A stretch of 31,568 nucleotides of DNA from a virus. The first letter of the stretch is position 1; each line of letters starts with the position of its first letter. A program made the position numbers and the translations under genes. The DNA lies in IMG/VR virus record IMGVR_UViG_3300025093_000075, positions 1 through 31,568 of that record, one strand, 5' to 3'. Positions 1-30,866 of this stretch are shown piece after piece. The notes beneath the pieces are model-generated. The model saw nothing but the letters and a program-made list of their open reading frames with translations. It searched no databases and was not told the origin of the DNA.

Positions 1-79
1 ATAACGTTGTTGGGGTTGTTTTTTAAGCAAAAAAGTCGACAAAGTTTGTAAAAAATCACAAAAAAGTTGCGAAATACGC

Positions 80-120
80 AAAAGCATAAGAGTTTGGTAG
101 TATACTCTTGTGCTTTTTTT
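80..120 (+). terminator. Rho-independent terminator
   Basis: A 14-bp inverted repeat (arms 80-93 and 104-117, one T-G wobble, 10-nt loop) runs straight into a T tract. The 5' arm starts with four A, so it could also stop transcription arriving from the other side. It probably closes a transcript entering from left of the window and insulates the terC-like gene. Confidence 0.85.
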
Positions 121-148
121 GTGTCAAATTGTGGAATAAAGTGGTATA

Positions 149-184: not shown

Positions 185-841
185 ATGATTTCAGGACTTA
201 TAATTATTTTAAATTTAGTGCTATTAGAGATAGTGCTAAGTATAGACAATGCAGCTGTGTTGTCTACTATGGTTAATGATTTACCAAAAAATCAACATAA
301 GAAGGCACTAACATATGGTATAGTGGGTGCATATGTATTTAGAGGTCTAGCACTTTTATTTGCTGTGTATCTAATCCAATTAGAGTGGCTTAAGATATTA
401 GGTGGATTGTATCTAGTTTATCTTTGTATTAGTTCGTTTAGAAATTCAGATAATCCACAAGCAAAGAAATTTAAGATACCATTTCTAAATAAGTTTTGGA
501 GTACAGTAGTGATGATCGAATTTGTGGATATTGTATTCAGTATAGATAATATATTCAGTGCGGTTGCATTTACTGATAACTACATATTGATTTGTTTAGG
601 TGTATTCATTGGTATATTGGCAATAAGATTTGCTACAATAAGACTAATCAAGTTACTAAACACAATACCAAATTTAGAAAGGATTGCATTCTTAGTTATA
701 GGTTTATTGGGTATCAAGTTATGTTTGTCAGCATTCATTATAGAATTGAGTAGTGAGTTTGTTGATATCATATTTTCAGCAATAACATTGATAGCATTTA
801 TAATACCCTTTATAACTTCAAGACGAAAGACGAAAGAGTAA
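185..841 (+). CDS. TerC-family integral membrane protein
   Basis: The 218-aa protein is almost wholly hydrophobic, with about seven membrane spans. It carries the duplicated acidic SIDN signature of the TerC family: E15 with SIDN at 19-22 in the first half, and E112 with SIDN at 119-122 in the second half. Family members are inner-membrane proteins linked to tellurite resistance and to Mn2+/Ca2+ export that metallates exported enzymes. TerC-like genes are known as accessory genes in some phages. The length fits a compact single-domain member without CBS or other extensions. It stands alone between a terminator and a tandem repeat, so it may be its own transcript. The substrate cannot be told from sequence. 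The last codons run into the heptanucleotide repeat. Confidence 0.88.
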   Translation: MISGLIIILNLVLLEIVLSIDNAAVLSTMVNDLPKNQHKKALTYGIVGAYVFRGLALLFAVYLIQLEWLKILGGLYLVYLCISSFRNSDNPQAKKFKIPFLNKFWSTVVMIEFVDIVFSIDNIFSAVAFTDNYILICLGVFIGILAIRFATIRLIKLLNTIPNLERIAFLVIGLLGIKLCLSAFIIELSSEFVDIIFSAITLIAFIIPFITSRRKTKE

Positions 842-896
842 AGAATAAAGAGTAAAGGGTAAAGACGAAAGAATAAAAAGTAAAGAATAAATAATA
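820..896 (+). repeat. Tandem 7-bp repeat, 11 degenerate units
   Basis: Eleven contiguous 7-mers with consensus AAGARTA fill 820-896: AAGACGA x2, AAGAGTA, AAGAATA, AAGAGTA, AAGGGTA, AAGACGA, AAGAATA, AAAAGTA, AAGAATA, AATAATA. The array is almost all purine on this strand. It spans the last codons and stop (839-841) of the terC-like gene and ends 6 nt before the next ATG. Possible roles are slipped-strand variation, a protein-binding array, or a residue of recombination. None is proven. Confidence 0.9.
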
Positions 897-902
897 AACA
901 TC

Positions 903-1184
903 ATGGAAGTACTAACAGCAATTGATTTTTTTAAAGAGAAATCCTTAAAAAGAAGAAAACAAGAGAATGAATACATTAGAGACATCATTATAAGTCAGTC
1001 AGAGTTTTATTTAACTGAAGATGATTTTATATTAGGTTATCTAGAAGAGACTGATATATGTATTAATATAGATGAAAAATATTTTCAAATAGATGGAATG
1101 GATTTTACTGATTGGTGTAAGAGACATTTTATAGTTTTAAGTGAAAGTGATAAGACAATAAGAATAGATGGTTTTAAATTTTAA
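903..1184 (+). CDS. Hypothetical protein (93 aa)
   Basis: No family recognised. The N-terminal third is charged and helical (KEKSLKRRKQENEY), and the rest is predicted mixed alpha/beta with acidic patches. No cysteine motif, membrane span or signal peptide is evident. The start is the first ATG after the heptanucleotide repeat and has the short A-rich leader used across this window. It leads the small-gene run at 903-7466. Confidence 0.75.
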   Translation: MEVLTAIDFFKEKSLKRRKQENEYIRDIIISQSEFYLTEDDFILGYLEETDICINIDEKYFQIDGMDFTDWCKRHFIVLSESDKTIRIDGFKF

Positions 1185-11005: not shown

Positions 11006-11929
11006 ATGAATGTATTAAGTTTATTTGATGGGATTAGCTGTGGTAGAATGGCTTTAGATCGGTTGAATATTAATGTCACAAATTATTTTGCTAGTGAAGT
11101 TAATGAATCAGCAATTAGGGGTGCAAAAGCATTGTATCCAGATACAAAACACATTGGTAGTGTTTTAGATGTAAAGGCTAAAGATTTACCAAAAATTGAT
11201 TTACTGATTGGTGGTAGTCCTTGTCAATCTTTTAGTCGGAGTGGAGATGGTAGCGGATTTGATGGTAGTTCAAGATTGTTTTGGGAATGGGTTAGATTAC
11301 TTAGAGAGATACAATCTTATAATCCAAACGTAAAATTTCTATTAGAGAATGTTGTAATGAAAAAAGAATGGGAAGATATAATTACAAATGAGTTAGGTGT
11401 TAAACCTCATCTAATAGATAGTACGCTTGTATCTGCACAAAAAAGACAAAGATTGTATTGGACTAACATAGATGGTTTTATTGAGCCAATAGATAAAAAA
11501 ATAACAACATTAGATATAATCGATGAGGAAGATTCATTTGTTGATATGCCTGATGGCTTTCTATGGTTTGAAGATGGCGAATGGAGAGTTAAAAATGCAA
11601 CAAAAAAAGGTTACTTAGTAGTTAATAATTTTGATACTATAAACCTAGATTTCCCAAATTCTAATACAAGGAGGGGTAGAGTTGCTAAACAAAAAACAAA
11701 TACCTTAAACACAGGTTGTAATCAAGGTATATTTATTAGTGGTAAAATAAAAAAACTAACAGCTAGAGAATGTGGAAGGTTGCAAACATTAAGCGATCAA
11801 CAAATAGACATGCTTAAGTTAGTTATGACAGATAACCAAATGAAACATGCTTTTGGTAATGGTTGGACTGTAGATGTAATATCATCTATATTATGTTCTT
11901 TAAAAATGTATTTAAATAAAGTTGCTTAA
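11006..11929 (+). CDS. Cytosine-5 DNA methyltransferase (first copy)
   Basis: Transfers methyl from SAM to C5 of cytosine in DNA. All key motifs are present: motif I LFDGISCGR (residues 6-14, SAM binding), motif IV GGSPCQSFS with nucleophile C73, motif VI LENV (113-116), motif VIII QKRQR (145-149), motif IX LTARECGRLQ (about 251-260) and motif X AFGNGWTVDVI (from 282). The 307-aa length and small target-recognition region between VIII and IX fit compact phage enzymes. The start resembles DNMT3-type sequences (LFDGI). No restriction enzyme is nearby, so it is probably a solitary protective methylase. A paralogue follows 497 nt downstream. Confidence 0.92.
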   Translation: MNVLSLFDGISCGRMALDRLNINVTNYFASEVNESAIRGAKALYPDTKHIGSVLDVKAKDLPKIDLLIGGSPCQSFSRSGDGSGFDGSSRLFWEWVRLLREIQSYNPNVKFLLENVVMKKEWEDIITNELGVKPHLIDSTLVSAQKRQRLYWTNIDGFIEPIDKKITTLDIIDEEDSFVDMPDGFLWFEDGEWRVKNATKKGYLVVNNFDTINLDFPNSNTRRGRVAKQKTNTLNTGCNQGIFISGKIKKLTARECGRLQTLSDQQIDMLKLVMTDNQMKHAFGNGWTVDVISSILCSLKMYLNKVA

Positions 11930-12425: not shown

Positions 12426-13316
12426 ATGAATGTATTAAGCTTATTTGACGGAATGTCTTGTGGTCAAATTGCACTAGAAAAAGCGGGTATTAAAGTGAAT
12501 AAATACTATGCAGGTGAGATAAAAGAACATGCAATAAAAGTTACACAAAGTAATTATCCTAACACAATTCAGTTAGGAGATGTGACTAAAATAAAAGCTA
12601 GTGATTTACCAAAGATTGATTTGTTAATTGGTGGTAGTCCTTGTCAAGATTTTAGTCGAGCTAATAAAGAGACAAAAGGCCTTGATGGTGAAAAAAGTGG
12701 ATTATTCTGGGAGTATGTTAGGCTATTAAAAGAAGTAAAACCAACTTATTTTCTTTTGGAAAATGTTAGAATGAAGAAAGAGTGGCAAGATATTATCTCC
12801 GAAGAACTAGGGGTACAACCTGTTAGAATTAACTCTTCATTAGTTAGTGGGGTATTGAGAGACCGTTTTTATTGGACTAATATACCATTCAATACTAATA
12901 TCAAAGATAGGGAAATTAAATTATCTGACATTATTGACGATGGGTATGTTGATAGAGAAAAGGGTTTATGTCTGCTTGAGAGTTATTCTAGACCATTAAA
13001 AAATCCAGTTAAAATCGCTAGAAGGTATTTTCTATATGGATTTTGGCAAGTTATATTCAAAGACGAAGAAACTTATAATAAACTAAAAGAAGATTATAGT
13101 TTAGCCCAAGAAGGTGATGTTAGATACATGACAAACAAAGAGATGGAAAGGGCACAAAGTGTACCACCTGGATACACATCAGAGTTAACAAGAAATGAAT
13201 CAGCATGTCTCTTAGGTGATGGATGGACAGTTGATGTTATAGTTGAAATATTTAAAGGTATAAAAGATGAAGATAATAACAGATTGCAGTATTTGCAAAA
13301 AAGACTTTTTGTATGA
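12426..13316 (+). CDS. Cytosine-5 DNA methyltransferase (second copy)
   Basis: The 296-aa enzyme has motif I LFDGMSCGQ (6-14), motif IV GGSPCQDFS with nucleophile C73, motif VI LENV (111-114), a motif VIII RDRFYW where the usual Gln is replaced, motif IX MTNKEMERAQ and motif X LLGDGWTVDVI. It is clearly a paralogue of the first copy: N-termini align residue for residue through the nucleophile, but the target-recognition region differs, suggesting another target sequence. Its last 50 nt overlap a zinc-ribbon gene in another frame (13267). Confidence 0.9.
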   Translation: MNVLSLFDGMSCGQIALEKAGIKVNKYYAGEIKEHAIKVTQSNYPNTIQLGDVTKIKASDLPKIDLLIGGSPCQDFSRANKETKGLDGEKSGLFWEYVRLLKEVKPTYFLLENVRMKKEWQDIISEELGVQPVRINSSLVSGVLRDRFYWTNIPFNTNIKDREIKLSDIIDDGYVDREKGLCLLESYSRPLKNPVKIARRYFLYGFWQVIFKDEETYNKLKEDYSLAQEGDVRYMTNKEMERAQSVPPGYTSELTRNESACLLGDGWTVDVIVEIFKGIKDEDNNRLQYLQKRLFV

Positions 13317-13443
13317 TCCAAATTTGGACCAGGAATTATATAGAGAAGTGGCATGGGATTTCTATACGGGAGAATGTTGTTCGTATGAAGTTGTTTGTCA
13401 AGATTGTAACGAAAAAGAAAAAAAAGAAAATGACAAGAATTAA
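13267..13443 (+). CDS. Overlapping zinc-ribbon microprotein (58 aa)
   Basis: ATG at 13267 opens a 58-codon frame ending at TAA 13441-13443. It overlaps the methyltransferase end by 50 nt and the DenV-like start by 14 nt. It encodes CSICKKDF early and CCSYEVVCQDC later, i.e. two CxxC-type knuckles joined by an acidic/aromatic linker, plus a Lys/Glu tail. Paired CxxC motifs are unlikely in a random frame, which is the main support. Expected to bind one Zn2+; partner and role unknown. It fills the 113-nt space that a naive call would give to an extended DenV N-terminus. Confidence 0.72.
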   Translation: MKIITDCSICKKDFLYDPNLDQELYREVAWDFYTGECCSYEVVCQDCNEKEKKENDKN

Positions 13444-13783
13444 TGTTGGAATTCCCCCCGCCAATTTATCAACGAAACATTTGATAGCTGAGCATAGGGA
13501 AATAAAAAGAATACCTAATGTTGTTAGGTCAGGTAGATTTAGTATGGATGGTCAACCAAAAGAATTTAAACTAGGCACAGGCCATGTTAAGTTCTTTTAT
13601 GATAAGTTGGGTTATCTTAAACATAGATATATAAGTTTGTATGAAGAATGTATTAATAGAGGTTTTAAAGTTACTAATTATATTAATGCTTGGGATGATA
13701 TTCCTATTTGCTATATGGGTGAGTATAAGCCTACGGATAGAGATATATCAATTATTCTTCAACGTATAAAAGAAAGGTCTTAG
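13430..13783 (+). CDS. denV: Pyrimidine-dimer DNA glycosylase/AP lyase, DenV-like
   Basis: Excises cyclobutane pyrimidine dimers from UV-damaged DNA and nicks the site. The 117-aa product matches T4 endonuclease V: MTRIN start with catalytic Thr2 (free after Met removal), AEHRE with E24 aligned to the T4 catalytic Glu23, and LGTGHVKFFYDKL matching T4 LGAGHVTFFYDKL. I placed the start at ATG 13430 because the enzyme needs Thr at the mature N-terminus; an upstream in-frame ATG at 13313 would add 39 residues and block this. It lacks the last ~20 residues of T4 DenV. Likely useful to a phage in sunlit habitats. Confidence 0.9.
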   Translation: MTRINVGIPPANLSTKHLIAEHREIKRIPNVVRSGRFSMDGQPKEFKLGTGHVKFFYDKLGYLKHRYISLYEECINRGFKVTNYINAWDDIPICYMGEYKPTDRDISIILQRIKERS

Positions 13784-13789
13784 CACATT

Positions 13790-13803
13790 TTTTACTATCA
13801 TCA
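13790..13803 (+). repeat. 14-bp intergenic repeat, copy 2
   Basis: Second perfect copy of TTTTACTATCATCA, 6 nt after the DenV-like stop and 10 nt before ATG 13814. The first nine bases recur at 18023-18031, overlapping the promoter for the PD-(D/E)XK nuclease. Possible operator or processing site. Confidence 0.6.
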
Positions 13804-13813
13804 AAAAAATATT

Positions 13814-14011
13814 ATGGAAAAATTAACAATAAATGTATTAGAGTTAGCAAGCGAACTAGCACATATGGAATTAGAGAGAGATTGGTCAGAATCTATAAAA
13901 ATATATGAAGATGAAGAAGCTTCTATAACAACATATACAGAGGAGGCACAGGATCTATTTAATGAATACTATGATAAATACACAGATTTAATATTAACAT
14001 GTAAATATTAG
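13814..14011 (+). CDS. Hypothetical acidic protein (65 aa)
   Basis: Starts the microprotein block after a 30-nt gap. Predicted to be helical throughout (VLELASELAHMELERDW, then EEAQDLFNEYYDKYTDLI). Strongly acidic. No recognised family. ATTATGG start context. Confidence 0.7.
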   Translation: MEKLTINVLELASELAHMELERDWSESIKIYEDEEASITTYTEEAQDLFNEYYDKYTDLILTCKY

Positions 14012-14020
14012 AAGTAATAT

Positions 14021-14272
14021 ATGAAAAGCATACAACATATAAATAAAAAATGTCCAAAATGTAATAGCTGTTTTAATGATTACCACTGTAATAATGGTGA
14101 AGAATATTTTAATTGCTACAACAAAGATTGCTCATTTTCATATAAAATAGAGTTTAAAAAAAATAAGGATGGAGATATATCAAAAAAATATGATAAACTT
14201 AGTGATACTATTAATTCAATAAAAATTGAGACTGTTTGGGAAAATAATAAAAAAATTGTTAGAAAATTATGA
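14021..14272 (+). CDS. Zinc-ribbon protein (83 aa)
   Basis: N-terminal ribbon: CPKCNSCF then HCNNGEEYFNCYNKDC, giving CxxC ... CxxxxC pairs suitable for one Zn2+, a pattern like transcription-factor-type ribbons. The C-terminal half is a basic helix (KKNKDGDISKKYDKL) and a short strand. It may bind nucleic acid. Stop overlaps the next ATG (14269). Confidence 0.7.
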   Translation: MKSIQHINKKCPKCNSCFNDYHCNNGEEYFNCYNKDCSFSYKIEFKKNKDGDISKKYDKLSDTINSIKIETVWENNKKIVRKL

Positions 14273-14364
14273 GAAATGCAACTAATTTAGCTGATTGGTC
14301 AAACCATTGGGACCATTTTAATATTGAAATATATTTTAGAATATTATCAATGAAACAAAGATAG
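14269..14364 (+). CDS. Possible microprotein (31 aa)
   Basis: Frame starts in the ATGA overlap with the ribbon-protein stop. Encodes MRNATNLADWSNHWDHFNIE and a hydrophobic/basic tail. Trp/His-rich. Support is limited to the coupled start and filling of the gap. Confidence 0.4.
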   Translation: MRNATNLADWSNHWDHFNIEIYFRILSMKQR

Positions 14365-14385
14365 AAACATATAAAATTATAGTAG

Positions 14386-14490
14386 ATGAAAAAAATATTT
14401 AAAAAATTAAAATCTATTCATGAATATTTAAAATGGATAGATGAAGAAAGAATTAAAGCAATGATAAATTGTGGTAGAGGATTTAATTAA
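14386..14490 (+). CDS. Basic microprotein (34 aa), ending GRGFN
   Basis: A 34-codon helical basic protein (KKIFKKLKSIHEYLKWI) ending ERIKAMINCGRGFN. The ERxKAMIxCGRGF ending is one I associate with small proteins from Bacteroidota phages, suggesting conservation. Function unknown. Confidence 0.6.
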   Translation: MKKIFKKLKSIHEYLKWIDEERIKAMINCGRGFN

Positions 14491-14502
14491 AATAAAATAA
14501 AA

Positions 14503-14733
14503 ATGAGTACAACATTCGGAGTAAAAGTAAAAGATAATATGGTTGAAGTAGCATTTCGTAATGGAAATGGAATGAGATTCATAAATGAATTAGCAGAATT
14601 ACTGCTAGACGATACGCCTGTAATTCCTTTAGATAACACAGCACAAGGAGTTTACACAATAGGTGATGTTAAAAAAGAAATTGAACAAACAGACCCAAAT
14701 GCAGAGTATTGGAGAACTGTTCCAATTAATTAA
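14503..14733 (+). CDS. Hypothetical protein (76 aa)
   Basis: Soluble beta-rich N-terminus (TTFGVKVKDNMVEVAF), a helix (FINELAELLL) and a C-terminal segment ending YWRTVPIN. No family recognised. A repeated gene-start cassette (14732-14751) begins directly at its stop codon. Confidence 0.68.
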   Translation: MSTTFGVKVKDNMVEVAFRNGNGMRFINELAELLLDDTPVIPLDNTAQGVYTIGDVKKEIEQTDPNAEYWRTVPIN

Positions 14734-14751
14734 ACCAAAACAAAGATGAGT
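14732..14751 (+). repeat. 20-bp gene-start cassette repeat, copy 1
   Basis: AAACCAAAACAAAGATGAGT, containing the ATG of the next gene (14746), recurs identically at 14853-14872 around the ATG of the gene after it. A 14-bp core (CAAAACAAAGATGA) occurs a third time at 15041-15054 around ATG 15051. All three copies sit on start codons. Confidence 0.85.
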
Positions 14752-14874
14752 AAAGAAGAACTTATTAAAGAATTAGAAGAAATAGTATCGTACTTTAAAG
14801 AGGATGGAATGTATGCTCTTAAAGGACTAGAAGATAAAATTAATAATCTCAAAAACCAAAACAAAGATGAGTGA
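14746..14874 (+). CDS. Acidic helical microprotein (42 aa)
   Basis: ATG lies within the repeat cassette. The 42-aa product is an acidic helix pair (EELIKELEEIVSYF and YALKGLEDKINNLK) and ends NQNKDE. The last codons are themselves the second copy of the cassette. Stop overlaps the next ATG (14867) by 8 nt. No family recognised; may form a coiled coil. Confidence 0.6.
   Translation: MSKEELIKELEEIVSYFKEDGMYALKGLEDKINNLKNQNKDE
14853..14872 (+). repeat. 20-bp gene-start cassette repeat, copy 2
   Basis: Perfect copy of 14732-14751. Unlike copy 1, it is translated as the C-terminus (NQNKDE) of the upstream protein while also providing the leader and ATG of the downstream gene. Confidence 0.85.
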
Positions 14875-15058
14875 AGCTTATGAAAACTCTTACAAGTTAT
14901 TAATGGGAGAAACAACCTATGATAAGTTAGCTGAAGATGGTATGTTCTTATTGCCAGTCAATCATGAAGATCCTTCAGTTACATTAAAGTATTTTGAAGA
15001 GATTGAAGATTATGAAAAATGTATAAAAATTAGAGATAAGCAAAACAAAGATGAATAG
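14867..15058 (+). CDS. Hypothetical acidic protein (63 aa)
   Basis: Begins in the cassette, overlapping the preceding gene by 8 nt. Acidic and helical with YKLLMGETTYDKLAEDGM followed by a FEEIEDYEKCIKIRDKQNK tail that again ends NKDE from the third cassette copy. I see no catalytic motif. Helical repeats at the end resemble a UvrB/UvrC-like UVR motif (EDYEKCIKIRD), which could mediate protein contacts; this is tentative. Confidence 0.68.
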   Translation: MSEAYENSYKLLMGETTYDKLAEDGMFLLPVNHEDPSVTLKYFEEIEDYEKCIKIRDKQNKDE

Positions 15059-15140
15059 ATTTGTAAAACCAATAACATGGTTTATTATATTTGTGGTATC
15101 TTGCTATATATGGGTAAATATAATTAAAATAATAATTTAA
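15051..15140 (+). CDS. Single-span membrane microprotein (29 aa)
   Basis: Frame of 29 codons starting in the third cassette copy and overlapping the previous gene by 8 nt. After MNRFVKP comes one hydrophobic helix rich in aromatic residues (ITWFIIFVVSCYIWVNII). The basic N-terminus suggests the tail faces outside. Function unknown. Confidence 0.5.
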   Translation: MNRFVKPITWFIIFVVSCYIWVNIIKIII

Positions 15141-15145
15141 AAATT

Positions 15146-15361
15146 ATGGGGATATTTTGCGAGAATAAAACAATATATAAATCAGGATGGTGGATTCAAG
15201 TTAGTCCACTAGCTAAAATAAATCCAGAAGAATGGATAGTTGCTATATATAAAAAAGGTAAGACATCTTGGATTACTGAAGAATGTAAGGATGGATTTGC
15301 CGATCCTATATCAGCAAAAGAATGGGGAATTAGTTATATAAACTCTAAAAATAAAGTATGA
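15146..15361 (+). CDS. Hypothetical Trp-rich protein (71 aa)
   Basis: A compact, tryptophan-rich soluble protein (SGWWIQVSPLA, EEWIVAIYKKGKTSWI) with a final helix (SAKEWGISYIN). It may be a small beta-sheet domain. No recognised family. ATGA overlap with the next gene at 15358. Confidence 0.68.
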   Translation: MGIFCENKTIYKSGWWIQVSPLAKINPEEWIVAIYKKGKTSWITEECKDGFADPISAKEWGISYINSKNKV

Positions 15362-15564
15362 ATGATGAAATAGTGACAGATAAAGGAACTTTTGAGTGTA
15401 AGTTAAAGACAGACTCAGAGAAGTTTTACTTAAATCGTAATCAATGTATGGCTTACGAAATGTGTATTGTAACAGATTTAAATGGTAATAAGATATCTAA
15501 TGGTATGAAAGCATTAGATTCATATTTTAAAAAATTAAGAAAATTAGCAAATGGAGGAGAATAG
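15358..15564 (+). CDS. Hypothetical protein (68 aa)
   Basis: Starts in the stop of the preceding gene; a second ATG lies at 15362 in another frame. The N-terminal half is beta-rich (TDKGTFECKLKTDSEKFY), and the C-terminal half is a basic helix (MKALDSYFKKLRKLANG). Overlaps the next gene by 14 nt. No family recognised. Confidence 0.66.
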   Translation: MNDEIVTDKGTFECKLKTDSEKFYLNRNQCMAYEMCIVTDLNGNKISNGMKALDSYFKKLRKLANGGE

Positions 15565-15781
15565 AAGGCTATATGATAGAATGAAAAGTAGAAATATAAG
15601 TACATTACAGTTGCATAGAGTTCTAAATGAAATAGATATACATATACCTAAAAGAACTCTTCAATACTATTTAGATAGTGATATGCTTAAGTGTAAAGAT
15701 GATAGAGTGCAAAAGGTTGCCGACTTTCTAATAAAATCTTTTGATGAAACAATTTTAAATTTAAAAACAGTAATAGATTAA
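15551..15781 (+). CDS. Putative small helix-turn-helix DNA-binding protein (76 aa)
   Basis: Basic helical protein with RMKSRNISTLQLHRVLNEI then IPKRTLQYYLDSD and RVQKVADFLI. The spacing of helix, IPKRTLQYYL recognition-like helix and trailing helix matches Cro/XRE-type HTH folds. It could regulate transcription of the nearby gene block, but no operator can be named. A TATA/AT-rich target could not be seen. Confidence 0.55.
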   Translation: MEENRRLYDRMKSRNISTLQLHRVLNEIDIHIPKRTLQYYLDSDMLKCKDDRVQKVADFLIKSFDETILNLKTVID

Positions 15782-15783
15782 GT

Positions 15784-15879
15784 ATGGTAGTATTTTGGAT
15801 TTATGTAGTAATTATGTCTTACATTTCTATAGCGGTTATTGTCGCTGATTATGAAGAACAAAGTAAAAAACATAATTAA
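15784..15879 (+). CDS. Single-span membrane microprotein (31 aa)
   Basis: Frame of 31 codons fits exactly between the HTH stop and the thioesterase ATG at 15880. The first 20 residues are a hydrophobic helix (VVFWIYVVIMSYISIAVIV), followed by a charged tail DYEEQSKKHN. This gives one span with a charged cytoplasmic-type tail. Function unknown. Confidence 0.52.
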   Translation: MVVFWIYVVIMSYISIAVIVADYEEQSKKHN

Positions 15880-16284
15880 ATGGAATTAATAAATAGTTAT
15901 CCTATAAAAAAATCAGATTTAGGATTTCATGGTAATTTATTTGGTGGTAAACTTTTGGCCTGGATTGATGCTTCAGCTGCTGCTTATGCAATGCAACTAT
16001 GTGATACACCTAGAATGGTAACAGTAAGTATTGATCAATGTAATTTTGAAAAACCTGCAAGAGAGAGCCAATTAATAAAGATATATGGCTTACCTACTTA
16101 CATAGGTAACACATCTATAGCTTTACATATGGAGGCTAGAGCACACAGTGTTTATACTGGAAAACAGGTTTTAATTTTAAAAACAGAGATAAGGTTTGTA
16201 CACATTGATGAAGATGGGAATCCTATCCCCATAAATGATAGGGCTAGAAATAAAGTGAGTAATAAAATTTTAAAAAAAGAGTAA
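15880..16284 (+). CDS. Acyl-CoA thioesterase, hotdog fold (YciA/BACH-like)
   Basis: Hydrolyses acyl-CoA to free fatty acid and CoA. The 134-aa protein is a full-length single hotdog domain: GFHGNLFGGKLLAWID (15-30) is the family signature helix, then RMVTVSIDQCNF and FEKPARE strand/turn typical of cytosolic acyl-CoA hydrolases, and the closing ALHMEARAH and EIRFVHID strands. No signal peptide, so it works in the cytoplasm. A fatty-acid enzyme is an unusual phage auxiliary gene; it lies between membrane microproteins, perhaps hinting at membrane lipid changes. The stop shares a TAATG with the next gene. Confidence 0.88.
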   Translation: MELINSYPIKKSDLGFHGNLFGGKLLAWIDASAAAYAMQLCDTPRMVTVSIDQCNFEKPARESQLIKIYGLPTYIGNTSIALHMEARAHSVYTGKQVLILKTEIRFVHIDEDGNPIPINDRARNKVSNKILKKE

Positions 16285-16403
16285 TGGATTTAATAGATAA
16301 AGACTTCGTTATAGAAGTATTAATGAGAGAAAATAGAATGCTAAAAACAATTTTAATAATAGAAACAATATGTAGTATTGCTTTACTAATTTTTATACTA
16401 TGA
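16284..16403 (+). CDS. C-terminally anchored membrane microprotein (39 aa)
   Basis: TAATG junction with the thioesterase gene and ATGA junction with the next gene. The N-terminal half is charged (MDLIDKDFVIEVLMRENRML); residues 22-39 are a hydrophobic helix ending at the C-terminus (TILIIETICSIALLIFIL). Looks tail-anchored. Function unknown. Confidence 0.55.
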   Translation: MDLIDKDFVIEVLMRENRMLKTILIIETICSIALLIFIL

Positions 16404-16753
16404 AAAAACTAATTTTTTTGTTTACAACATTTATTTCATTAAATTTGTATTCCCAATTGGAATTACCTCTTCCGCAGAGTAATTATGAACAAGTTGGTCC
16501 ATATTGTGATACCAATAAATGTGGTAGGTGGATAACCTATTATAAAGATGGTAATATAGCAATGGTTGAAACATTTGATGAAGAAGGAAGATTAAAAGGG
16601 GAAAGATTCACATTTAGAACAGATGGTACAGTTAAACACTACACTGAATGGGAATATGGTATTAAAGTGGGAAAAGAAATTTTCTTTGATGAGAATGGTT
16701 ATCCTATAGAAGTTATTTATATTAAAAAAAATGATAGTCATAAAAAAAGATAA
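16400..16753 (+). CDS. Exported MORN-repeat-like protein
   Basis: Residues 1-19 form a classic signal peptide (MKKLIFLFTTFISLNLYSQ) of the type used in Bacteroidota, so the mature protein should be periplasmic or secreted; no lipobox Cys is seen. The mature part has MORN-variant repeats: GRWITYYKDGNI, GRLKGERFTFRTDGTVK and GKEIFFDENGYP. These occur in YwqK-like and secreted proteins of this phylum. Role may be envelope interaction or superinfection control; this is inference. Its end overlaps the next gene by 23 nt. Confidence 0.75.
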   Translation: MKKLIFLFTTFISLNLYSQLELPLPQSNYEQVGPYCDTNKCGRWITYYKDGNIAMVETFDEEGRLKGERFTFRTDGTVKHYTEWEYGIKVGKEIFFDENGYPIEVIYIKKNDSHKKR

Positions 16754-17114
16754 TTACGATTTAATACTTAGCTATGATTCTAGTGATTTGTTTAGACACT
16801 ACAATGTTGAGGAGATGCATGGTTTATCATTAAAAGAATCTATGAATCATCCTAATACAAAGGATAGTGCTTACATTTGTGGATTGTGTAATTATGTACC
16901 CAAAGATGATCGTATGTATAAAGTTGGAGATAGGATGTTTGTATTTATAAATTTAACTAGATGTAATAATCCTATTGAAACATTTGGACATATTATGCAT
17001 GAGATGATGCACTTATCATTTGAATTACATGATTATGATATATACAAAGAAGAAGAAATGATAACATGGGCAGAGAAAGAGTCTCATGAAGTTTATAAAG
17101 TCATTGAAAAGTAG
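16731..17114 (+). CDS. Putative zinc metallopeptidase-like protein (HEMMH)
   Basis: Contains HIMHEMMHLSFELH around residues 87-100, giving HExxH as H90-E91-xx-H94, with later acidic residues (EEEMITWAEKES) that could supply the third Zn2+ ligand. The upstream YICGLCNYV cysteine pair may add structure. Length 127 aa is minimal. No signal peptide, so cytoplasmic. It overlaps the exported MORN-like gene by 23 nt. Proteolysis is inferred from the motif only. Confidence 0.6.
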   Translation: MIVIKKDNYDLILSYDSSDLFRHYNVEEMHGLSLKESMNHPNTKDSAYICGLCNYVPKDDRMYKVGDRMFVFINLTRCNNPIETFGHIMHEMMHLSFELHDYDIYKEEEMITWAEKESHEVYKVIEK

Positions 17115-17115
17115 T

Positions 17116-17418
17116 ATGGCTGAAAATAGAAAAGAGATATCTTTTAAAATTAAATTATTGATAATATTTATATCTGCCATATTGTTAGAAGCTAATAGTA
17201 TAGCTGGAATGAGATTCCTTATAGATAATAATTATGTAGGAATGGCTATATCTGTTTTTATAACTCCTTTTGTTTGTTTACCAATGAACCACTTTACAAT
17301 AGAGGTAAAAACATTAAGAGAGAGAATATGGATTGCGTGTGCTTTTTCTACAGGATTTACACTAGGAGTAATATTAATTAGACCATTCTTTGAATTAGAA
17401 GGTGGGGGGTTTTTTTAA
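17116..17418 (+). CDS. Multi-span membrane protein (100 aa)
   Basis: Start set at ATG 17116, 1 nt after the previous stop; an in-frame ATG at 17086 would lie inside the metalloprotein gene. After a polar N-terminus come three likely spans: LLIIFISAILLEANSIAG, then GMAISVFITPFVCLPM, then IACAFSTGFTLGVILI. It ends FFELEGGGFF, where a run of six G and seven T (17404-17416) meets the stop. In the +1 frame the tract would join it to the next membrane microprotein. No family recognised. Confidence 0.65.
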   Translation: MAENRKEISFKIKLLIIFISAILLEANSIAGMRFLIDNNYVGMAISVFITPFVCLPMNHFTIEVKTLRERIWIACAFSTGFTLGVILIRPFFELEGGGFF

Positions 17419-17434
17419 AAATATCAAGGTAGCA

Positions 17435-17509
17435 ATGCTAGTAATATACATATTGATAATAGGTATATCATATTTTATTTATAAAAAAATTAAAAAACTA
17501 ATAAAATGA
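17435..17509 (+). CDS. Membrane microprotein or detached C-terminus (24 aa)
   Basis: Encodes MLVIYILIIGISYFIYKKIK plus KLIK: one span and a basic tail. The frame is open upstream through the G6T7 tract of the 100-aa gene, so it may be the fourth span of that protein separated by a one-base shift. As a separate gene it has an ATG and an ATGA overlap with the next gene (17506). Confidence 0.4.
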   Translation: MLVIYILIIGISYFIYKKIKKLIK

Positions 17510-17631
17510 AAGTTAATAAGAGAGTTGATGATTTAATTAAGATAGCAATAGAAGTTAAAAAATTAGTGTCTACCAAACCCAATGATGCTGATTTAGGTTA
17601 TGAAATAAGAAAATTAATTTTAAAGAAATGA
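17506..17631 (+). CDS. Small basic helical protein (41 aa)
   Basis: Coupled at both ends by overlaps (ATGA at 17506 and at 17628). Encodes KRVDDLIKIAIEVKKLV and a second helix YEIRKLILKK. Likely a helical hairpin. No family recognised. Confidence 0.6.
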   Translation: MKVNKRVDDLIKIAIEVKKLVSTKPNDADLGYEIRKLILKK

Positions 17632-18020
17632 GAGAAGAATTAAAAAAAGTAAAGGAATTCCATGAGGCATTTGGTTTAAAAGATAAATTGTCTGAATCCC
17701 CCTCACAAATTAGTAAATCAGATTCAGAATTGAGACATTCTTTAATGGAGGAAGAAAATACAGAGTATCTAGATGCTTGTAATAATAACGATATTGAGGA
17801 AATAGCTGATGCTCTAGGTGATCAACTATATATTTTATGTGGTACTATACTAGCACATGGTATGGGGGATATCATTGTTAACATATTTAATGAGATACAT
17901 AGGTCTAATATGAGTAAGCTTGATAAGAATGGTAAACCTATATATAGAGAAGATGGTAAAATCTTAAAGGGAGAAAATTATTTTAAGCCGAATTTTAAAA
18001 ATATCTTGGATATTAAGTAA
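17628..18020 (+). CDS. MazG-like NTP pyrophosphohydrolase
   Basis: Belongs to the all-alpha NTP pyrophosphatase superfamily (MazG/PRA-PH/dUTPase-like), which cleaves (d)NTP to (d)NMP and PPi with Mg2+. Key ligands are visible: EEENTEY (41-47, EExxE pattern) and EIADALGD (58-65), then the C-terminal EIHRSNMSKLDKNGKP typical of phage members. At 130 aa it is a single-domain enzyme. Substrate not predictable; may clear dUTP-like or modified nucleotides, or influence (p)ppGpp-type stress as proposed for phage MazG. Next to the nucleotide and replication genes. Confidence 0.86.
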   Translation: MREELKKVKEFHEAFGLKDKLSESPSQISKSDSELRHSLMEEENTEYLDACNNNDIEEIADALGDQLYILCGTILAHGMGDIIVNIFNEIHRSNMSKLDKNGKPIYREDGKILKGENYFKPNFKNILDIK

Positions 18021-18036
18021 AATTTTACTATTTTTG
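18006..18036 (+). promoter_or_regulatory. Bacteroidota-type promoter, leaderless
   Basis: TTG (18006-18008), a 20-nt spacer, then TATTTTTG (18029-18036), a perfect TAnnTTTG. The ATG of the nuclease gene begins at 18040, three bases after the box. The TTG lies inside the last codons of the MazG-like gene. Shares TTGGA...ATT upstream sequence with the 28799 promoter. Confidence 0.8.
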
Positions 18037-18039
18037 CAT

Positions 18040-18789
18040 ATGGAAAAAATCATATTACCAAGACAAGCAGAGGATGGAAACTATTATATATCTTATTCTC
18101 AATACAATTCGTTTAAAAGTCTTAAAAGTTTTAATTTAGGAATAGAAGGCAAGCATGAATACATTAGAACATACTTCTTAAATGAAACTCATCCTGATCA
18201 AGGGTGGGCAGAATTTGGACAAGATGTAGAAGATTATATATGCTATGGGAGTCTAAATAAAACTAAGTTAAAAAAACTTGACAAGGAGAGAAGTAATAAT
18301 AATCAAAAATTAGTTTCTGAAGTAATTAGTGGTTTCAATGAAGATGAAAAGAATACACTAAGTAAAATAGAACCATTAGGTAATTTTCAAGTAGAAGTGA
18401 ACTTAAAGATACTACCAAATGTTTTTATAAAAGGTTATATAGACGATGCTACAAAGGATTTAACTCATATAAGAGATTACAAAACTTGTAGTAAAAATAG
18501 CTCTAAAAAATACTATGGTGATGACTACTACCAATTAGATATTTATAGTGCTTGGGTAAAACAAGAAACAGGAGAGTTTCCAAAGAAAGCGGAAGTCTGT
18601 ATGATAGAAAGGAAAGGTAATTGCTTTGGTCTTGTAGAAAGAAGGGACTTACTTACAGTTGGTAATGAAGTTTGGTATAATGATAGAGAAATCTATAGAG
18701 ACAGAGTAGATTACGTTATTGATGATATAAAGAAAGTAGTTTCTGAAATATCAGATTTGTATAAAGTTTTTTTAAAATCAAATAAATAA
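18040..18789 (+). CDS. PD-(D/E)XK superfamily nuclease (Cas4/RecB-like)
   Basis: A 249-aa nuclease: VEVNLKIL (E119), GYIDDATKD with D135, IRDYKTCS with D146 and K148 of the D-x-K core, then YYQLDIYSAW (QxxxY motif, about 164-172). This order is typical of the RecB/Cas4 exonuclease family; no iron-sulfur Cys cluster is visible, so it is not Cas4 in the strict sense. It probably trims DNA ends in recombination. Start at ATG 18040, not the TTG at 18034 inside the promoter. Promoter position suggests a leaderless mRNA. Confidence 0.85.
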   Translation: MEKIILPRQAEDGNYYISYSQYNSFKSLKSFNLGIEGKHEYIRTYFLNETHPDQGWAEFGQDVEDYICYGSLNKTKLKKLDKERSNNNQKLVSEVISGFNEDEKNTLSKIEPLGNFQVEVNLKILPNVFIKGYIDDATKDLTHIRDYKTCSKNSSKKYYGDDYYQLDIYSAWVKQETGEFPKKAEVCMIERKGNCFGLVERRDLLTVGNEVWYNDREIYRDRVDYVIDDIKKVVSEISDLYKVFLKSNK

Positions 18790-19049
18790 TGAGGTTAGTA
18801 GCAAAATCAGAATGGTTTATGTTTGGTAAGGGATTCGAAGATGAGGTTGAATCTTTCTTAGGATCTTTTATCATAGAAAGAAAAGAGGTAAATGGTAGGG
18901 TGTCTTGGTATGGAGAAAAAAGACACTACGTTAAAGAGCCTAATTCAAAACATTGGCAAGTTATAGAAGATGAAAAAATGTATCAAACTGATGAGCCAAA
19001 GTTTGAGAAAGCCAGAAGAGAATTAGAGATGAGAATAATAGCAAATTAA
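18789..19049 (+). CDS. Hypothetical protein (86 aa)
   Basis: TAATG overlap with the nuclease stop. Basic/acidic mix with GKGFEDEVESFLGSF and a small KRHYVKEPNSKHWQVI segment. Likely alpha/beta. Coupled to the nuclease, so perhaps an accessory. No family recognised. Confidence 0.65.
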   Translation: MRLVAKSEWFMFGKGFEDEVESFLGSFIIERKEVNGRVSWYGEKRHYVKEPNSKHWQVIEDEKMYQTDEPKFEKARRELEMRIIAN

Positions 19050-19065
19050 TTAAAATCCAAATAAA

Positions 19066-19470
19066 ATGAGTGAAGAAAAAGTAGATGCAAAAAAGTTACT
19101 AGAGGAATCTAGAAAGGAAAGAGAAGCTGTAAATAAAGTTTTTGATGAGCTTTTAGTTAAACTTAGTGAAGAAGGTTATTCTAATAGGGGTTACTCTTCA
19201 GAATCAAGTATAACTATGAAGGGCGAGTTGTTCGCAACATTCTTAAATACTTTAACTTACACTAAAAACACATTAGAGAATATTGATAAGACATTGGAAG
19301 CCACTATTAGGTCTTCTGAGTTATTACAAAATAACTTTGCAAAAATGACTATTCAATTAATGGAACAACACATAAAGAATATTGAAGATGGTAATACATC
19401 AACAATGGATGAGTTAGATGCACAAGATTCTGAAAAGAAGATTAAGGAAGTAAAGAAAAAGAAAAAATAA
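19066..19470 (+). CDS. Coiled-coil protein with Lys-rich tail (134 aa)
   Basis: Three long helices are predicted (AKKLLEESRKEREAVNKVF, then FATFLNTLTYTKNTLENI, then LLQNNFAKMTIQLMEQHI), ending with an acidic linker and a KKIKEVKKKKK tail. It probably forms an oligomer, and the basic tail could contact DNA. It sits between a nuclease and an exonuclease. No recognised family. Confidence 0.68.
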   Translation: MSEEKVDAKKLLEESRKEREAVNKVFDELLVKLSEEGYSNRGYSSESSITMKGELFATFLNTLTYTKNTLENIDKTLEATIRSSELLQNNFAKMTIQLMEQHIKNIEDGNTSTMDELDAQDSEKKIKEVKKKKK

Positions 19471-19473
19471 CAT

Positions 19474-20391
19474 ATGAATAGAAGAGTAAGAACCAAGAAC
19501 GTCGAAGATTTATTATTCTTTGACATAGAGACAGTATCTCGTAATCCAGAACCCATAATTGATACAAAAGAGTATGACTTGTATGCCTGGTTTATTAGAG
19601 ATAAAGAAACAAATAAGATACCTGAGCATGATGAAATTGTAAGAAGTTACAAAATGAATGCTGCTTTAAAACCGGAGTTTAACAAAATCGTTTGTATAAG
19701 TGTTGGTTTTGTAAAAGGTGATACAATTTATTATAAAGCAATTACAGGTAATCAAAAAGATATAATAGAAGAATTTTATTCTATTGTAAATGAAACAGGA
19801 AAACTTTTAGCGGGCCATAATATAATTGGATTTGACTTACCTGTAGTTAGACTTAAGGCTTTTGAATCAGGTGTTCAAATAGGTTTGCCAGAGACTTTAA
19901 ATGATTCTGGAGCAAAACCATGGACTATAGCTGAGAATCTATTTGATACAATGGACATCACGAAGGGTACATATTTCAATAACATATCTTTAGATTCAAT
20001 GTGTATGCTGGCAAATATAGATACCCCAAAAGATGATATATCAGGTAGCCAGGTAACCGAAACCTTTTATAAAGGAGAGATTGAAAGAATTGCTAATTAC
20101 TGTAACAAAGATGTTATAGCATCAATAGAATTATTTCTAGCTCTTCAAGGAAATAGTGGAACTATAAAATATTACATTGAGAGAGGTGGAAAAATTGAAA
20201 ATAGTCCACTAATTACAGCGATTGGAATGACTAAGCAAGTTAATGATACACAAAAAGCTAGATTGCTAGAGGTAGCTAAGGGTTTAAAAACTAAAGAAAA
20301 GGAGAGGTTAGTTGACATAGTTAAGGCTTGTTTAGCAAAGAATAAATTTGAAGAAAGTGAAGAAAAGTTATTTAAAACTTTGTTAAAGTAA
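19474..20391 (+). CDS. DEDD-family 3'-5' exonuclease
   Basis: RNase H-fold exonuclease. Motif I FFDIETV (D17, E19), motif II GHNIIGFDLP (D121) and motif III YCNKD (209-213, the YX3D form, D213) give the four acidic metal ligands of DEDDy exonucleases. A C-terminal extension of about 85 residues with no known domain is present. It is independent of the polymerase, which has its own N-terminal exonuclease. Likely roles: repair, recombination or nucleotide recycling from host DNA. It is followed by a terminator. Confidence 0.87.
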   Translation: MNRRVRTKNVEDLLFFDIETVSRNPEPIIDTKEYDLYAWFIRDKETNKIPEHDEIVRSYKMNAALKPEFNKIVCISVGFVKGDTIYYKAITGNQKDIIEEFYSIVNETGKLLAGHNIIGFDLPVVRLKAFESGVQIGLPETLNDSGAKPWTIAENLFDTMDITKGTYFNNISLDSMCMLANIDTPKDDISGSQVTETFYKGEIERIANYCNKDVIASIELFLALQGNSGTIKYYIERGGKIENSPLITAIGMTKQVNDTQKARLLEVAKGLKTKEKERLVDIVKACLAKNKFEESEEKLFKTLLK

Positions 20392-20431
20392 AAAAGTACA
20401 CCATGCCAATGGAGTAAGTCCCATAACACAC

Positions 20432-20470
20432 ACCCCCTAGCAAGTTTAAAAATTTGTTGGGGGGTTTTTA
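20432..20470 (+). terminator. Rho-independent terminator
   Basis: CCCCC (20433-20437) pairs with GGGGG(G) (20459-20464), extended by CAA/TTG pairing, then five T. It closes the nuclease/exonuclease group. No recognisable promoter lies between it and ATG 20488. Confidence 0.82.
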
Positions 20471-20487
20471 AAAAAATATCTGATAAA

Positions 20488-20718
20488 ATGGTAAATGACG
20501 AAATTAAATTTGTTATATATAATAATAATATTACCTTAGATGGTGAAAGGTTAACTATAACAAGAAACAAAAAAGAAGTATACAATAATACGTTTACGGA
20601 AGTTGATTACGATTATAGTAATTTCGTTTTTAGTTGTACAGGTGGAGATGTTGTAAAGATTCCTAAGCTTGCTTTAAAAAAGTGTTCAATAAAGATTGAT
20701 AATGGGGAACAAGAATAG
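20488..20718 (+). CDS. Hypothetical protein (76 aa)
   Basis: Beta-rich soluble protein (FVIYNNNITLDGERLTI, YSNFVFSCTGGDVVKI). It overlaps the phoH-like start by 17 nt. No recognised family, but short proteins preceding phage phoH genes are common. Confidence 0.68.
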   Translation: MVNDEIKFVIYNNNITLDGERLTITRNKKEVYNNTFTEVDYDYSNFVFSCTGGDVVKIPKLALKKCSIKIDNGEQE

Positions 20719-21457
20719 ACCTACAAAAAAATTAACAGATGAGGATATTGAGGGGTTAGACGAGTATGAAAGTTTATCACAAAAATCTTCAAAGATAGAC
20801 ATACTTAATAGATTAGATAAGTTTTTTAAGCCTAATCAAAAACAAATTGATTTTATAAAAACTATAGATAAATCTATTATAACAATATGTCATGGTTCGG
20901 CTGGTACAGGTAAATCTATAACAGCTTTGTATAGAGGTTTACATCAGTCTATAAAAGAGAATATGAGGCTTGTATTGATTAGGCCTATTTTTGAATCAGC
21001 ATCTCAAGGACTTGGTTTCTTACCTGGTGAGTTGGAAGATAAAATAGAACCACATTTTAAAGCCTTTCAGTATACGCTTGATGAATTAATTGGTAGATCA
21101 AATACTAATGATTTAATTGAGTCTGGAAAAATAAAATTTGAACTATTAAATTATCTAAGAGGTGCAACATTAAATAATTCAATAATTATATGTGATGAAG
21201 CACAGAATATGACAGTTGATGAAATGATATTAGCAACAACTAGATTAGGAAGAAGTTCTAAGATAATTTTTACAGGAGATTTTTATCAGTCAGATTTAAG
21301 AAAAGCTAAAGGTTCTATAATGGAATTTGGTGATATGATAAAAAGTATAGAAGGAGTTAATAAATTTACTTTTACTAATAAGGATGTAGTAAGAAATCCA
21401 ATATTAGTAGAAGTTACAAAGGCGTGGGAAGAATACAAGGAAAAGAAGAACTTGTAA
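20702..21457 (+). CDS. phoH: PhoH-like ATPase
   Basis: P-loop ATPase of the PhoH family, common in marine and flavobacterial phages. Walker A GSAGTGKS (65-72), Walker B IIICDEAQN, a late TGDFYQSD motif and an upstream FKPNQKQIDF lead-in. PhoH resembles the helicase core of SF1 and may have RNA helicase/RNase-linked roles; its exact phage function is unsettled. I start at ATG 20702, not the alternative TTG at 20696. 251 aa, normal for the family. Confidence 0.93.
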   Translation: MGNKNRPTKKLTDEDIEGLDEYESLSQKSSKIDILNRLDKFFKPNQKQIDFIKTIDKSIITICHGSAGTGKSITALYRGLHQSIKENMRLVLIRPIFESASQGLGFLPGELEDKIEPHFKAFQYTLDELIGRSNTNDLIESGKIKFELLNYLRGATLNNSIIICDEAQNMTVDEMILATTRLGRSSKIIFTGDFYQSDLRKAKGSIMEFGDMIKSIEGVNKFTFTNKDVVRNPILVEVTKAWEEYKEKKNL

Positions 21458-21479
21458 TTTATTAAAAAATATTTGTATG

Positions 21480-21510
21480 AACCCCTTACAAATTTAGTGA
21501 GGGGTTTTTT
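21480..21510 (+). terminator. Terminator between phoH and nrdB
   Basis: ACCCCTTAC (21481-21489) pairs with GTGAGGGGT (21497-21505) through nine base pairs (one T-G wobble) with a seven-base loop, then T6. It lies 22 nt after the phoH stop and 23 nt before nrdB. Some readthrough or an unseen promoter must feed nrdB. Confidence 0.86.
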
Positions 21511-21532
21511 AACCTCTAAAATTAAAAGAAAT

Positions 21533-22543
21533 ATGGGATTATTTGATGAAAGGGTGGAGTATAAACCATTTGAGTATCCAGAGTATTATACTAAAGGTTG
21601 GTTACCTCAAGCACAGGCTTTTTGGTTACATACAGAAATATCTATGCAAGGTGATATAAAGGATTGGAACGAAAATCTAACTAAAGAAGAAAAGAATTTA
21701 GTAGGTAATATACTATTAGGATTTGCTCAAACTGAATGTGCTGTTAGTGATTATTGGACAGGTATGGTTACTAATTGGTTTCCAAAGCATGAGATAAAGC
21801 AAATGGCTATGATATTTGGATCACAAGAGACAATACATGCAACAGCTTACTCGTACTTAAATGAAACACTTGGGTTAGAAGATTTTAAAGCATTTCTACA
21901 TGAACCATCTATAGCTGATAAATTTGAATACTTAATGTCTACATCAAATAATTGGACTCATTCAGAATTATCTTCTGTACCAAAGGCTAGAAAAGAGGTT
22001 GCTAAATCTTTAGCTATTTTCTCAGCATTTGCAGAAGGTGTTTCTCTATATAGTTCTTTTGCTGTTTTATACTCATTTCAAATGAGAAACATGTTAAAAG
22101 GTATAGGTCAACAGATGAAGTGGTCAGTAAGAGATGAGTCACTACATTCAAGAATGGGTTGTCAGTTATTTAGACATATGTGCCAAGAGTACACAGATTT
22201 AAGTGAATTGGTTAAAGATGATGTCATAAAAGCAGCAAAATTAATGGTTGAAATGGAAATCAAGTTTATTGATAAGATGTTTGAAATGGGTGATTTAGAA
22301 AATCTTAAAGCTGAAGATTTAAAGAACTTTATAAAACAAAGGGCAAATGAAAAACTTGGGGAATTAGGTTATAATGCTATTCCTGGTGGGGATTTTTATT
22401 TTTATTATGATGAAGAGTCAGCTAAGAATTTAGAGTGGTTTTATCATCTAACAGGTGGTACTACGCATACTGATTTCTTCGCTATAAGACCTACAGATTA
22501 TGCAAAAGCAGGAGAAGATGATGATTGGGATGATATATTTTAA
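21533..22543 (+). CDS. nrdB: Class I ribonucleotide reductase beta subunit (R2)
   Basis: Provides the radical for making dNDPs/dNTPs. The 336-aa R2 keeps the di-metal ligands E69 (in QTECAVSDYW), E99 and H102 (SQETIHATAY), E168 (FAEGV), E202 and H205 (DESLH), plus radical Tyr106. E69 takes the place of Asp84 of E. coli. The acidic aromatic C-terminus (DDDWDDIF) should dock on NrdA. I start at ATG 21533: the upstream TTG at 21473 would put the terminator hairpin inside the gene. Followed after 12 nt by nrdA. Confidence 0.95.
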   Translation: MGLFDERVEYKPFEYPEYYTKGWLPQAQAFWLHTEISMQGDIKDWNENLTKEEKNLVGNILLGFAQTECAVSDYWTGMVTNWFPKHEIKQMAMIFGSQETIHATAYSYLNETLGLEDFKAFLHEPSIADKFEYLMSTSNNWTHSELSSVPKARKEVAKSLAIFSAFAEGVSLYSSFAVLYSFQMRNMLKGIGQQMKWSVRDESLHSRMGCQLFRHMCQEYTDLSELVKDDVIKAAKLMVEMEIKFIDKMFEMGDLENLKAEDLKNFIKQRANEKLGELGYNAIPGGDFYFYYDEESAKNLEWFYHLTGGTTHTDFFAIRPTDYAKAGEDDDWDDIF

Positions 22544-22555
22544 AAAAACTAAAAA

Positions 22556-24337: not shown

Positions 24338-24360
24338 ATAAAAAAATAGTTTAAATTTTT

Positions 24361-24394
24361 AGGGAGGATTTTTTTGAAAAGTCCTCCTTTTTTT
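24361..24394 (+). terminator. Rho-independent terminator (fused to next promoter)
   Basis: GGAGGA (24363-24368) pairs with TCCTCC (24382-24387), extended by T/A pairs to a small loop, then T7. Closes the nrd transcript. The loop holds TTG (24374-24376), which also serves as the -33 element of the promoter below. Confidence 0.86.
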
Positions 24395-24403
24395 GTAATT
24401 TTG
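24374..24403 (+). promoter_or_regulatory. Bacteroidota-type promoter for replication genes
   Basis: TTG (24374-24376), a 19-nt spacer, then TAATTTTG (24396-24403), a perfect TAnnTTTG. Expected start near 24408, so a leader of about 15 nt before ATG 24423. Lies within and just after the terminator hairpin. Confidence 0.75.
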
Positions 24404-24422
24404 TAACAAATAAATATATATT

Positions 24423-24605
24423 ATGATAACAACAGTTTTATTAAGATCAAAGGTAATTAATATAGCATTTTGTGCTTTAAAGAAAAGAGAAAGAGAGTTT
24501 ACAATAATACCAACTATTGAGATAGTTGTTCCAAATGACATTGAAGGTTTGTCTTTTGAGATTAGATTTTTAAAATTTTCAATGGGTATATTTTTTATAA
24601 AATGA
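24423..24605 (+). CDS. Hypothetical protein (60 aa)
   Basis: First gene of the replication operon. Basic, beta-rich and partly hydrophobic (TTVLLRSKVINIAFCALKKR, TIIPTIEIVV). The C-terminal hydrophobic run (FSMGIFFIK) is too short for a clear span. Stop overlaps the next ATG (24602). No recognised family. Confidence 0.6.
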   Translation: MITTVLLRSKVINIAFCALKKREREFTIIPTIEIVVPNDIEGLSFEIRFLKFSMGIFFIK

Positions 24606-26829: not shown

Positions 26830-26835
26830 TATTTT

Positions 26836-28794: not shown

Positions 28795-28798
28795 AATA

Positions 28799-28829
28799 TT
28801 GGAATATTTAAAATAAATTAATAACTTTG
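28799..28829 (+). promoter_or_regulatory. Bacteroidota-type promoter, leaderless
   Basis: TTG (28799-28801), a 20-nt spacer and TAACTTTG (28822-28829), a perfect TAnnTTTG. The ATG of PrimPol begins at 28834, four bases after the box, exactly where transcription is expected to start. The best promoter in the window. Confidence 0.85.
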
Positions 28830-28833
28830 TAAA

Positions 28834-29826: not shown

Positions 29827-29829
29827 ATT

Positions 29830-30865: not shown

Positions 30866-30866
30866 T

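Follow-up and report, generated by a model that had tools for sequence, protein, structure and literature searches.

A probable heptanucleotide simple sequence repeat across the end of a viral terC gene differs by one unit between two close relatives

The question raised by this locus is what kind of element a tandem array of heptamers forms when it lies across a gene end in a viral genome. The array is found in virus record IMGVR_UViG_3300025093_000075, and the window, that is, the whole stretch of DNA analysed, comprises all 31,568 bases of this record. The original prediction described eleven in-register AAGARTA-type 7-mers that extend through the stop codon of a terC-like gene to just before the next ATG, and suggested a variable locus, a binding array or an origin-like element. 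The evidence presented here makes it probable that the array is a lineage-specific heptanucleotide simple sequence repeat (SSR) that arose, and has since varied, by replication slippage at the junction between terC and the downstream gene. The features of the junction, all on the + strand, are as follows.

76..123, +: hairpin and T run resembling a terminator, upstream of terC
185..841, +: gene for a terC-like membrane protein (PF03741, E 2.6e-48)
820..896, +: heptamer array of AAGARTA type, 11 units
820..833, +: identical neighbouring units AAGACGA AAGACGA, the putative slippage site, one of which is absent in the relative (locus L004)
839..841, +: TAA that ends terC; it lies within the array and spans units 3 and 4
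897..902, +: AACATC, the 6 nt separating the last unit from the next ATG
903..1184, +: downstream gene of 93 aa

From position 820, the first six units are AAGACGA, AAGACGA, AAGAGTA, AAGAATA, AAGAGTA and AAGGGTA, and units 7 to 11 are AAGACGA, AAGAATA, AAAAGTA, AAGAATA and AATAATA, after which AACATC leads to the ATG at 903. Five of the eleven units are exact AAGARTA, three are AAGACGA and three are single variants. Tandem 7-nt units are present well beyond chance: the period-7 self-match from 820 is 55 of 70, whereas 200 sequences drawn from a second-order Markov model of the window have a best value of 42 and a mean of 36. Tandem Repeats Finder lists the array under periods 7, 14 and 21, and with a score of up to 90 it ranks first among the 36 rows given for the window. 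The predicted array of eleven units is thereby confirmed. A search for the repeat in the rest of the genome had also been suggested, and within the window the array is the sole one of period 7, with no second one at a looser threshold.

The upstream gene product belongs to the TerC family, with a PF03741 match of 164.5 bits against a gathering cut-off of 27.8. As predicted, the array runs through the terC stop codon to near the next ATG; to this can be added that it starts six codons before the stop, such that the last six residues of the protein (RRKTKE) are array-coded and the repeat begins directly after the conserved TerC fold, the end of which was set by alignment with one phage relative and six cellular proteins. 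The 93-aa product of the downstream gene has no Pfam or PHROGs match at E 0.001. The gap between the two genes is 61 nt, while the median of the 54 gaps listed for the window is 12 nt and 15 gaps are larger, two of these 15 being inflated by the omission of genes with TTG starts. Upstream of terC, the segment 70–125 folds with a minimum free energy (MFE) of −20.5 kcal/mol (z −5.35), and the terminator-like hairpin at 76–123 within it suggests that terC heads its own transcription unit. The hairpin is not among the predictions of a simple terminator scan, and a promoter scan gave 15 sites versus 16.8 expected.

Viral scans with the 93-aa gene and with a 293-aa gene matched a single relative, IMGVR_UViG_3300025889_000577, and this was the sole relative found that holds the junction; a scan with the DnaB-like gene gave a 56-kb contig that overlaps 12787–31568 of the window and lacks the junction. 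In the junction-bearing relative, TerC is 99% and the 93-aa gene 92% identical, and the array has 10 units rather than 11, with exactly one AAGACGA missing. The absent unit comes from the only identical adjacent pair in the array (820–833), a place at which slippage is to be expected. The remaining 76 bases before the ATG carry no substitution between the window and the relative, and terC carries nine in 657 nt. We therefore read the one-unit loss at the identical pair as the probable footprint of slippage. A collapse of the array during assembly is unlikely because the array (79 bp) is short enough to be spanned by ordinary reads. Whole-unit copy-number change between close relatives, a property of SSRs, is thus seen as 11 versus 10 units in one relative and one contig pair. 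An identical unit number in all relatives, which had been put forward as the finding that would speak against a special role, is not what the comparison gives. As a variable locus, then, the array lives up to the prediction insofar as its unit number differs in the single junction-bearing relative, but no obvious switch accompanies the difference.

The consequences of the missing unit can be read directly. Its predicted effects on the C-terminus and on the spacing to the next gene are both found, as a change of one tail residue from T to S and a gap of 54 instead of 61 nt, but TerC retains its length of 218 aa and the last 76 bases before the ATG are untouched. Each of the three frames of the unmodified array contains stops, and the C-terminal effect of a unit change is tiny because all frames soon reach one of them.

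The array looks like a young local expansion because the other viral and cellular terC junctions examined are without it. A 115-kb relative (G003; 115,584 bases), in which terC is split over both contig ends, has a TerC that is 92% identical over residues 19–147 and 79% identical over residues 58–215, and its terC junction consists of an 11-nt gap with no array. At the site of the window array this record (L150) has a 12-pair hairpin, with one G-U pair, that lies over the last terC codons and ends just before the stop. Of the 26 TerC loci from the last viral scan, 24 (20 distinct junctions) remain once the array-bearing relative and the truncated end of the 115-kb record are set aside. None of these 24 further loci has an array after terC, one of them (L440) being cut 18 bases past the stop, and their period-7 scores range from 13 to 26 of 42, versus 32 in the relative. 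Phage genes with 66 and 70% identity belong to this array-free set. Among cellular genomes, 198 from the phylum of a Flavobacterium were searched, and none of the 30 terC ends considered (the best 30 of 165 matching) carries the array. Fifteen of the 24 phage proteins have Lys or Arg at two or more of the three C-terminal positions, and in 12 of the 24 loci the next start lies from 4 nt before to 6 nt after the terC stop. The AAGARTA unit could accordingly have been seeded from the A-rich end, encoding Lys or Arg plus a stop, that is typical of many phage terC genes.

We propose that such an A-rich terC end seeded the heptamer and that replication slippage would then expand the array and change its unit number. 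In the sense orientation the TAA-bearing heptamer would stop translation in any frame shortly past the TerC fold, adding a short charged tail, and would leave an A-rich unfolded leader of the kind that may be used by starts lacking Shine–Dalgarno sequences. Given a frame-proof stop, a short charged tail and a leader of this type, gain or loss of units should be nearly neutral, and translation of the 93-aa gene would be altered mildly if at all.

The translation context leaves room for a mild leader role, which merits consideration. No Shine–Dalgarno-like motif occurs in any of 56 start contexts of the window (two of which are mis-set and not ATG, with TTG-start genes left out), and A is dominant at −13 to −9 and −5 to −3, which suggests a Bacteroidota host. 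In Flavobacterium johnsoniae, A at −3, −6, −12 and −13 together with low structure is described as favouring initiation (PMC6847099). The start of the 93-aa gene has A at all four of these positions, −3 and −6 lying in AACATC and −12 and −13 in the last unit, and the array RNA is predicted to be unstructured (MFE 0 over 101 nt). As a leader with an unstructured RNA and A at favourable positions, in a genome without Shine–Dalgarno starts, the array should not impair translation of the 93-aa gene and might favour it. A stronger proposal is that it is a functional intercistronic leader, in which the unstructured purine-rich array serves as a ribosome landing or S1-type binding stretch and unit number tunes translation of the 93-aa gene. 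In favour of such a role, the array end lies only 6 nt from the ATG, and a comparable proposal has been published for TAACTGA repeats (PMC4679880). Nevertheless, at least five other starts in the window have MFE 0 leaders with no array, so one is not needed; the observed variation is at the far 5′ end, leaving the last 76 nt constant; and other phage terC junctions manage without the repeat. On balance we regard a tuning function as unlikely.

A broader version of this idea would make TAA-bearing heptamer arrays that bridge a stop and the next start an intercistronic element that recurs under selection in bacteria without Shine–Dalgarno starts and in their phages, joining a frame-proof stop to an unfolded, length-tunable leader. 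If this were so, the clearest case would be the 64-kb record IMGVR_UViG_3300033150_001531 (G004, L185–L188; 64,275 bases), which has seven period-7 arrays built of at least six different units. All seven occupy the space that separates one gene's stop from the start of the following gene on the same strand, and by inspection every sense unit contains TAA. The same record also has ten period-6 places, five of them entirely within ORFs, and a few arrays of periods 5, 9, 10 and 11. It is thus repeat-rich in general, which lowers the odds of selection.

Surveys of similar arrays bear on the same point. The original prediction held that arrays of this kind are rare in compact phage genomes, a view that the viral contigs do not support: three AAGARTA units plus AAG occur in 20 stretches in 19 viral contigs, the relative included, and TAA-bearing heptamer arrays of at least eight units give at least 120 viral matches, as do period-8 arrays, numbers that allow no comparison of frequency between periods. 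Requiring a clean period and a position off the contig edge kept 115 of 154 period-7 and 65 of 143 period-8 arrays among the matches listed. The 115 clean heptamer arrays comprise 75 different units, and at ∼16 places both strands contribute to the count. Of these arrays, 39 have a nearby stop on the same strand versus 27 on the opposite strand, and 10 bridge a stop and a start in the sense orientation versus 14 in antisense; among the clean period-8 arrays (n=65), the corresponding counts of nearby stops are 14 and nine. That TAA-bearing arrays are never deep inside a same-strand ORF is true by construction. The sense preference of generic TAA-bearing viral heptamer arrays is therefore weak, and for this reason the three-frame-stop argument fails to explain array placement in general.

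In genome contigs, three AAGARTA units plus AAG occur in at least 119 stretches, and in 99 assemblies among the matches listed; the carriers listed include many Flavobacterium and Chryseobacterium as well as Paenibacillus, Shewanella, Chloroflexi and others. The distribution is sporadic: of 61 Flavobacterium genomes 8 carry the array, the figures for their phylum and for that of an Aliivibrio genome being 6 of 247 and 2 of 249, and every figure includes a centre genome picked because of its array. Gene ends were taken from plain ORF criteria (80 or 60 aa). Among the matches listed, a same-strand stop falls within −30 to +40 of the array start in 59 of 123 genomic arrays, versus eight in the mirror arrangement. 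Since an antisense array closes no frame, stops inside the array would bias the comparison; those 0–30 nt before the array, taken on their own, number 23 versus six in mirror image, or 20 versus six when one array is taken per assembly (n=99; p=0.009). This strand bias might reflect function, and is a point against a neutral repeat. Period 7 also does not stand alone: once the AAGARTA arrays were masked, genome loci totalling 804,950 bases held arrays of period 7 nine times, of period 8 six times, of period 6 twice and of period 16 nine times. Taken together, we consider a selected intercistronic element to be improbable.

The remaining explanations fare considerably worse. A phase-variable or contingency locus, with TerC or its neighbour turned on and off by gain or loss of units, is suggested by the 11 versus 10 units of the two relatives and by the fact that 7 is not a multiple of 3. 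However, both alleles encode a 218-aa TerC that differs by a single conservative change in the tail, every frame is soon closed, and the frame of the next gene cannot change since its start is outside the array. The locus is therefore not of the frame-switching type, and a contingency role is very unlikely.

A protein-binding array or an iteron-like replication origin would be in keeping with direct repeats within an AT-rich stretch, but neither finds support. Period scans find one copy each in the window and the relative's first 12 kb and no array in the overlapping 56-kb contig, and an exact-pattern search found no second place in the whole relative. There are three DnaA-box-like sites where 6.7 are expected and no turn in GC skew, so that the hallmarks of an iteron or DnaA-type origin are missing. 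Furthermore, the array overlies a stop codon in the sense orientation and has no counterpart at the other phage terC junctions read. Both of these suggestions of the original prediction are accordingly set aside, their probability being close to negligible.

It is just as hard to credit that a mobile or host-derived repeat module was brought in with terC: the heptamer does occur in bacteria, including the Flavobacterium genomes noted above, but its absence from the 30 best-matching cellular terC ends speaks against inheritance from a cell together with that gene, it is likewise missing from the phage homologues of 66 and 70% identity, and the different heptamers at such junctions in the 64-kb record favour local birth.

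A slippage-born SSR is also the reading that places the array within a known class. Heptamer repeats are over-represented among bacterial SSRs, for which slippage is given as an explanation (PMC4679880; PMC4692102). With prokaryotic heptanucleotide LSSRs (Mrazek 2007, as related in PMC4679880 and PMC4692102) the array shares a tandem 7-nt unit, a length above chance, a position at a gene junction and a copy number that differs between close relatives; it differs in coming from a virus record, in its degenerate units and in being the single array in the part of the genome seen. Closer in design are the TAACTGA arrays described from Beggiatoaceae, Cyanobacteria and some Bacteroidetes (MacGregor 2015, PMC4679880), which close three forward frames, may overlap a coding end by up to 18 nt and lie mostly near start codons. 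The window array is likewise TAA-bearing, closes three forward frames, overlaps the upstream stop as TAACTGA arrays may, lies near a start and has a predicted unstructured RNA. Unlike that class as described, its unit is AAGARTA rather than TAACTGA and it is one set in the parts seen instead of many sets per genome near starts, with no sign of a genome-wide network.

Other described repeats are less similar. The GGGNATC-type heptamers of Xanthomonas and Nostoc, reported by Rehm et al. (PMC4692102) to vary in length and sequence between close relatives, are also intergenic, but they are G-rich and studied there as quadruplex formers, whereas A predominates in the window array, which has a single run of three G. 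The uspA1 and uspA2 tracts of Moraxella catarrhalis (as cited in PMC4679880) are copy-variable repeats upstream of a start codon too; these are mono- or tetranucleotide tracts with measured effects on expression. Within a limited library and set of terms, a literature search returned no report of AAGARTA arrays or of phage heptamer arrays, and a search for a 14-base stretch of the array had no match. The array is a further case of the known heptanucleotide SSR class and, as it stands, an ordinary repeat. Its value lies in providing a clean natural one-unit heptamer difference in a viral genome, the coding consequence of which is exactly readable. Together with comparable junction arrays, including the seven in one record, it allows one to ask whether such repeats are tolerated noise or tune translation in genomes without Shine–Dalgarno sequences.

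Several further observations were made in the surroundings of the junction. ARAGORN, and Rfam at its gathering threshold, returned nothing for the window, L004 and L005. A tRNA-like element nonetheless lies upstream of terC at 2593–2672 of L004 and 2856–2927 of L005. Its Rfam tRNA scores, 27.3 and 24.5 bits, fall short of the gathering score of 29, and ARAGORN does not call it. By inspection, the acceptor- and T-arm changes between the two elements preserve pairing. A Cpn10 (GroES-like) gene (PF00166; L023, 411–662) is located upstream of terC in the relative. The junction-bearing relative (L004) also has ∼180 extra bases after the point corresponding to window position ∼1620, and these contain an ATG frame, a small difference in gene content. 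Farther along the window, the genes at 11006–11929 and 12426–13316 have similar products with the same starting motif, and the former matches C-5 cytosine methylases in Pfam. Other window genes encode a thioesterase (4HBT; 15880–16284), a phosphoribosyl-ATP pyrophosphohydrolase-like protein (17628–18020) and a PhoH-like protein (20696–21457).
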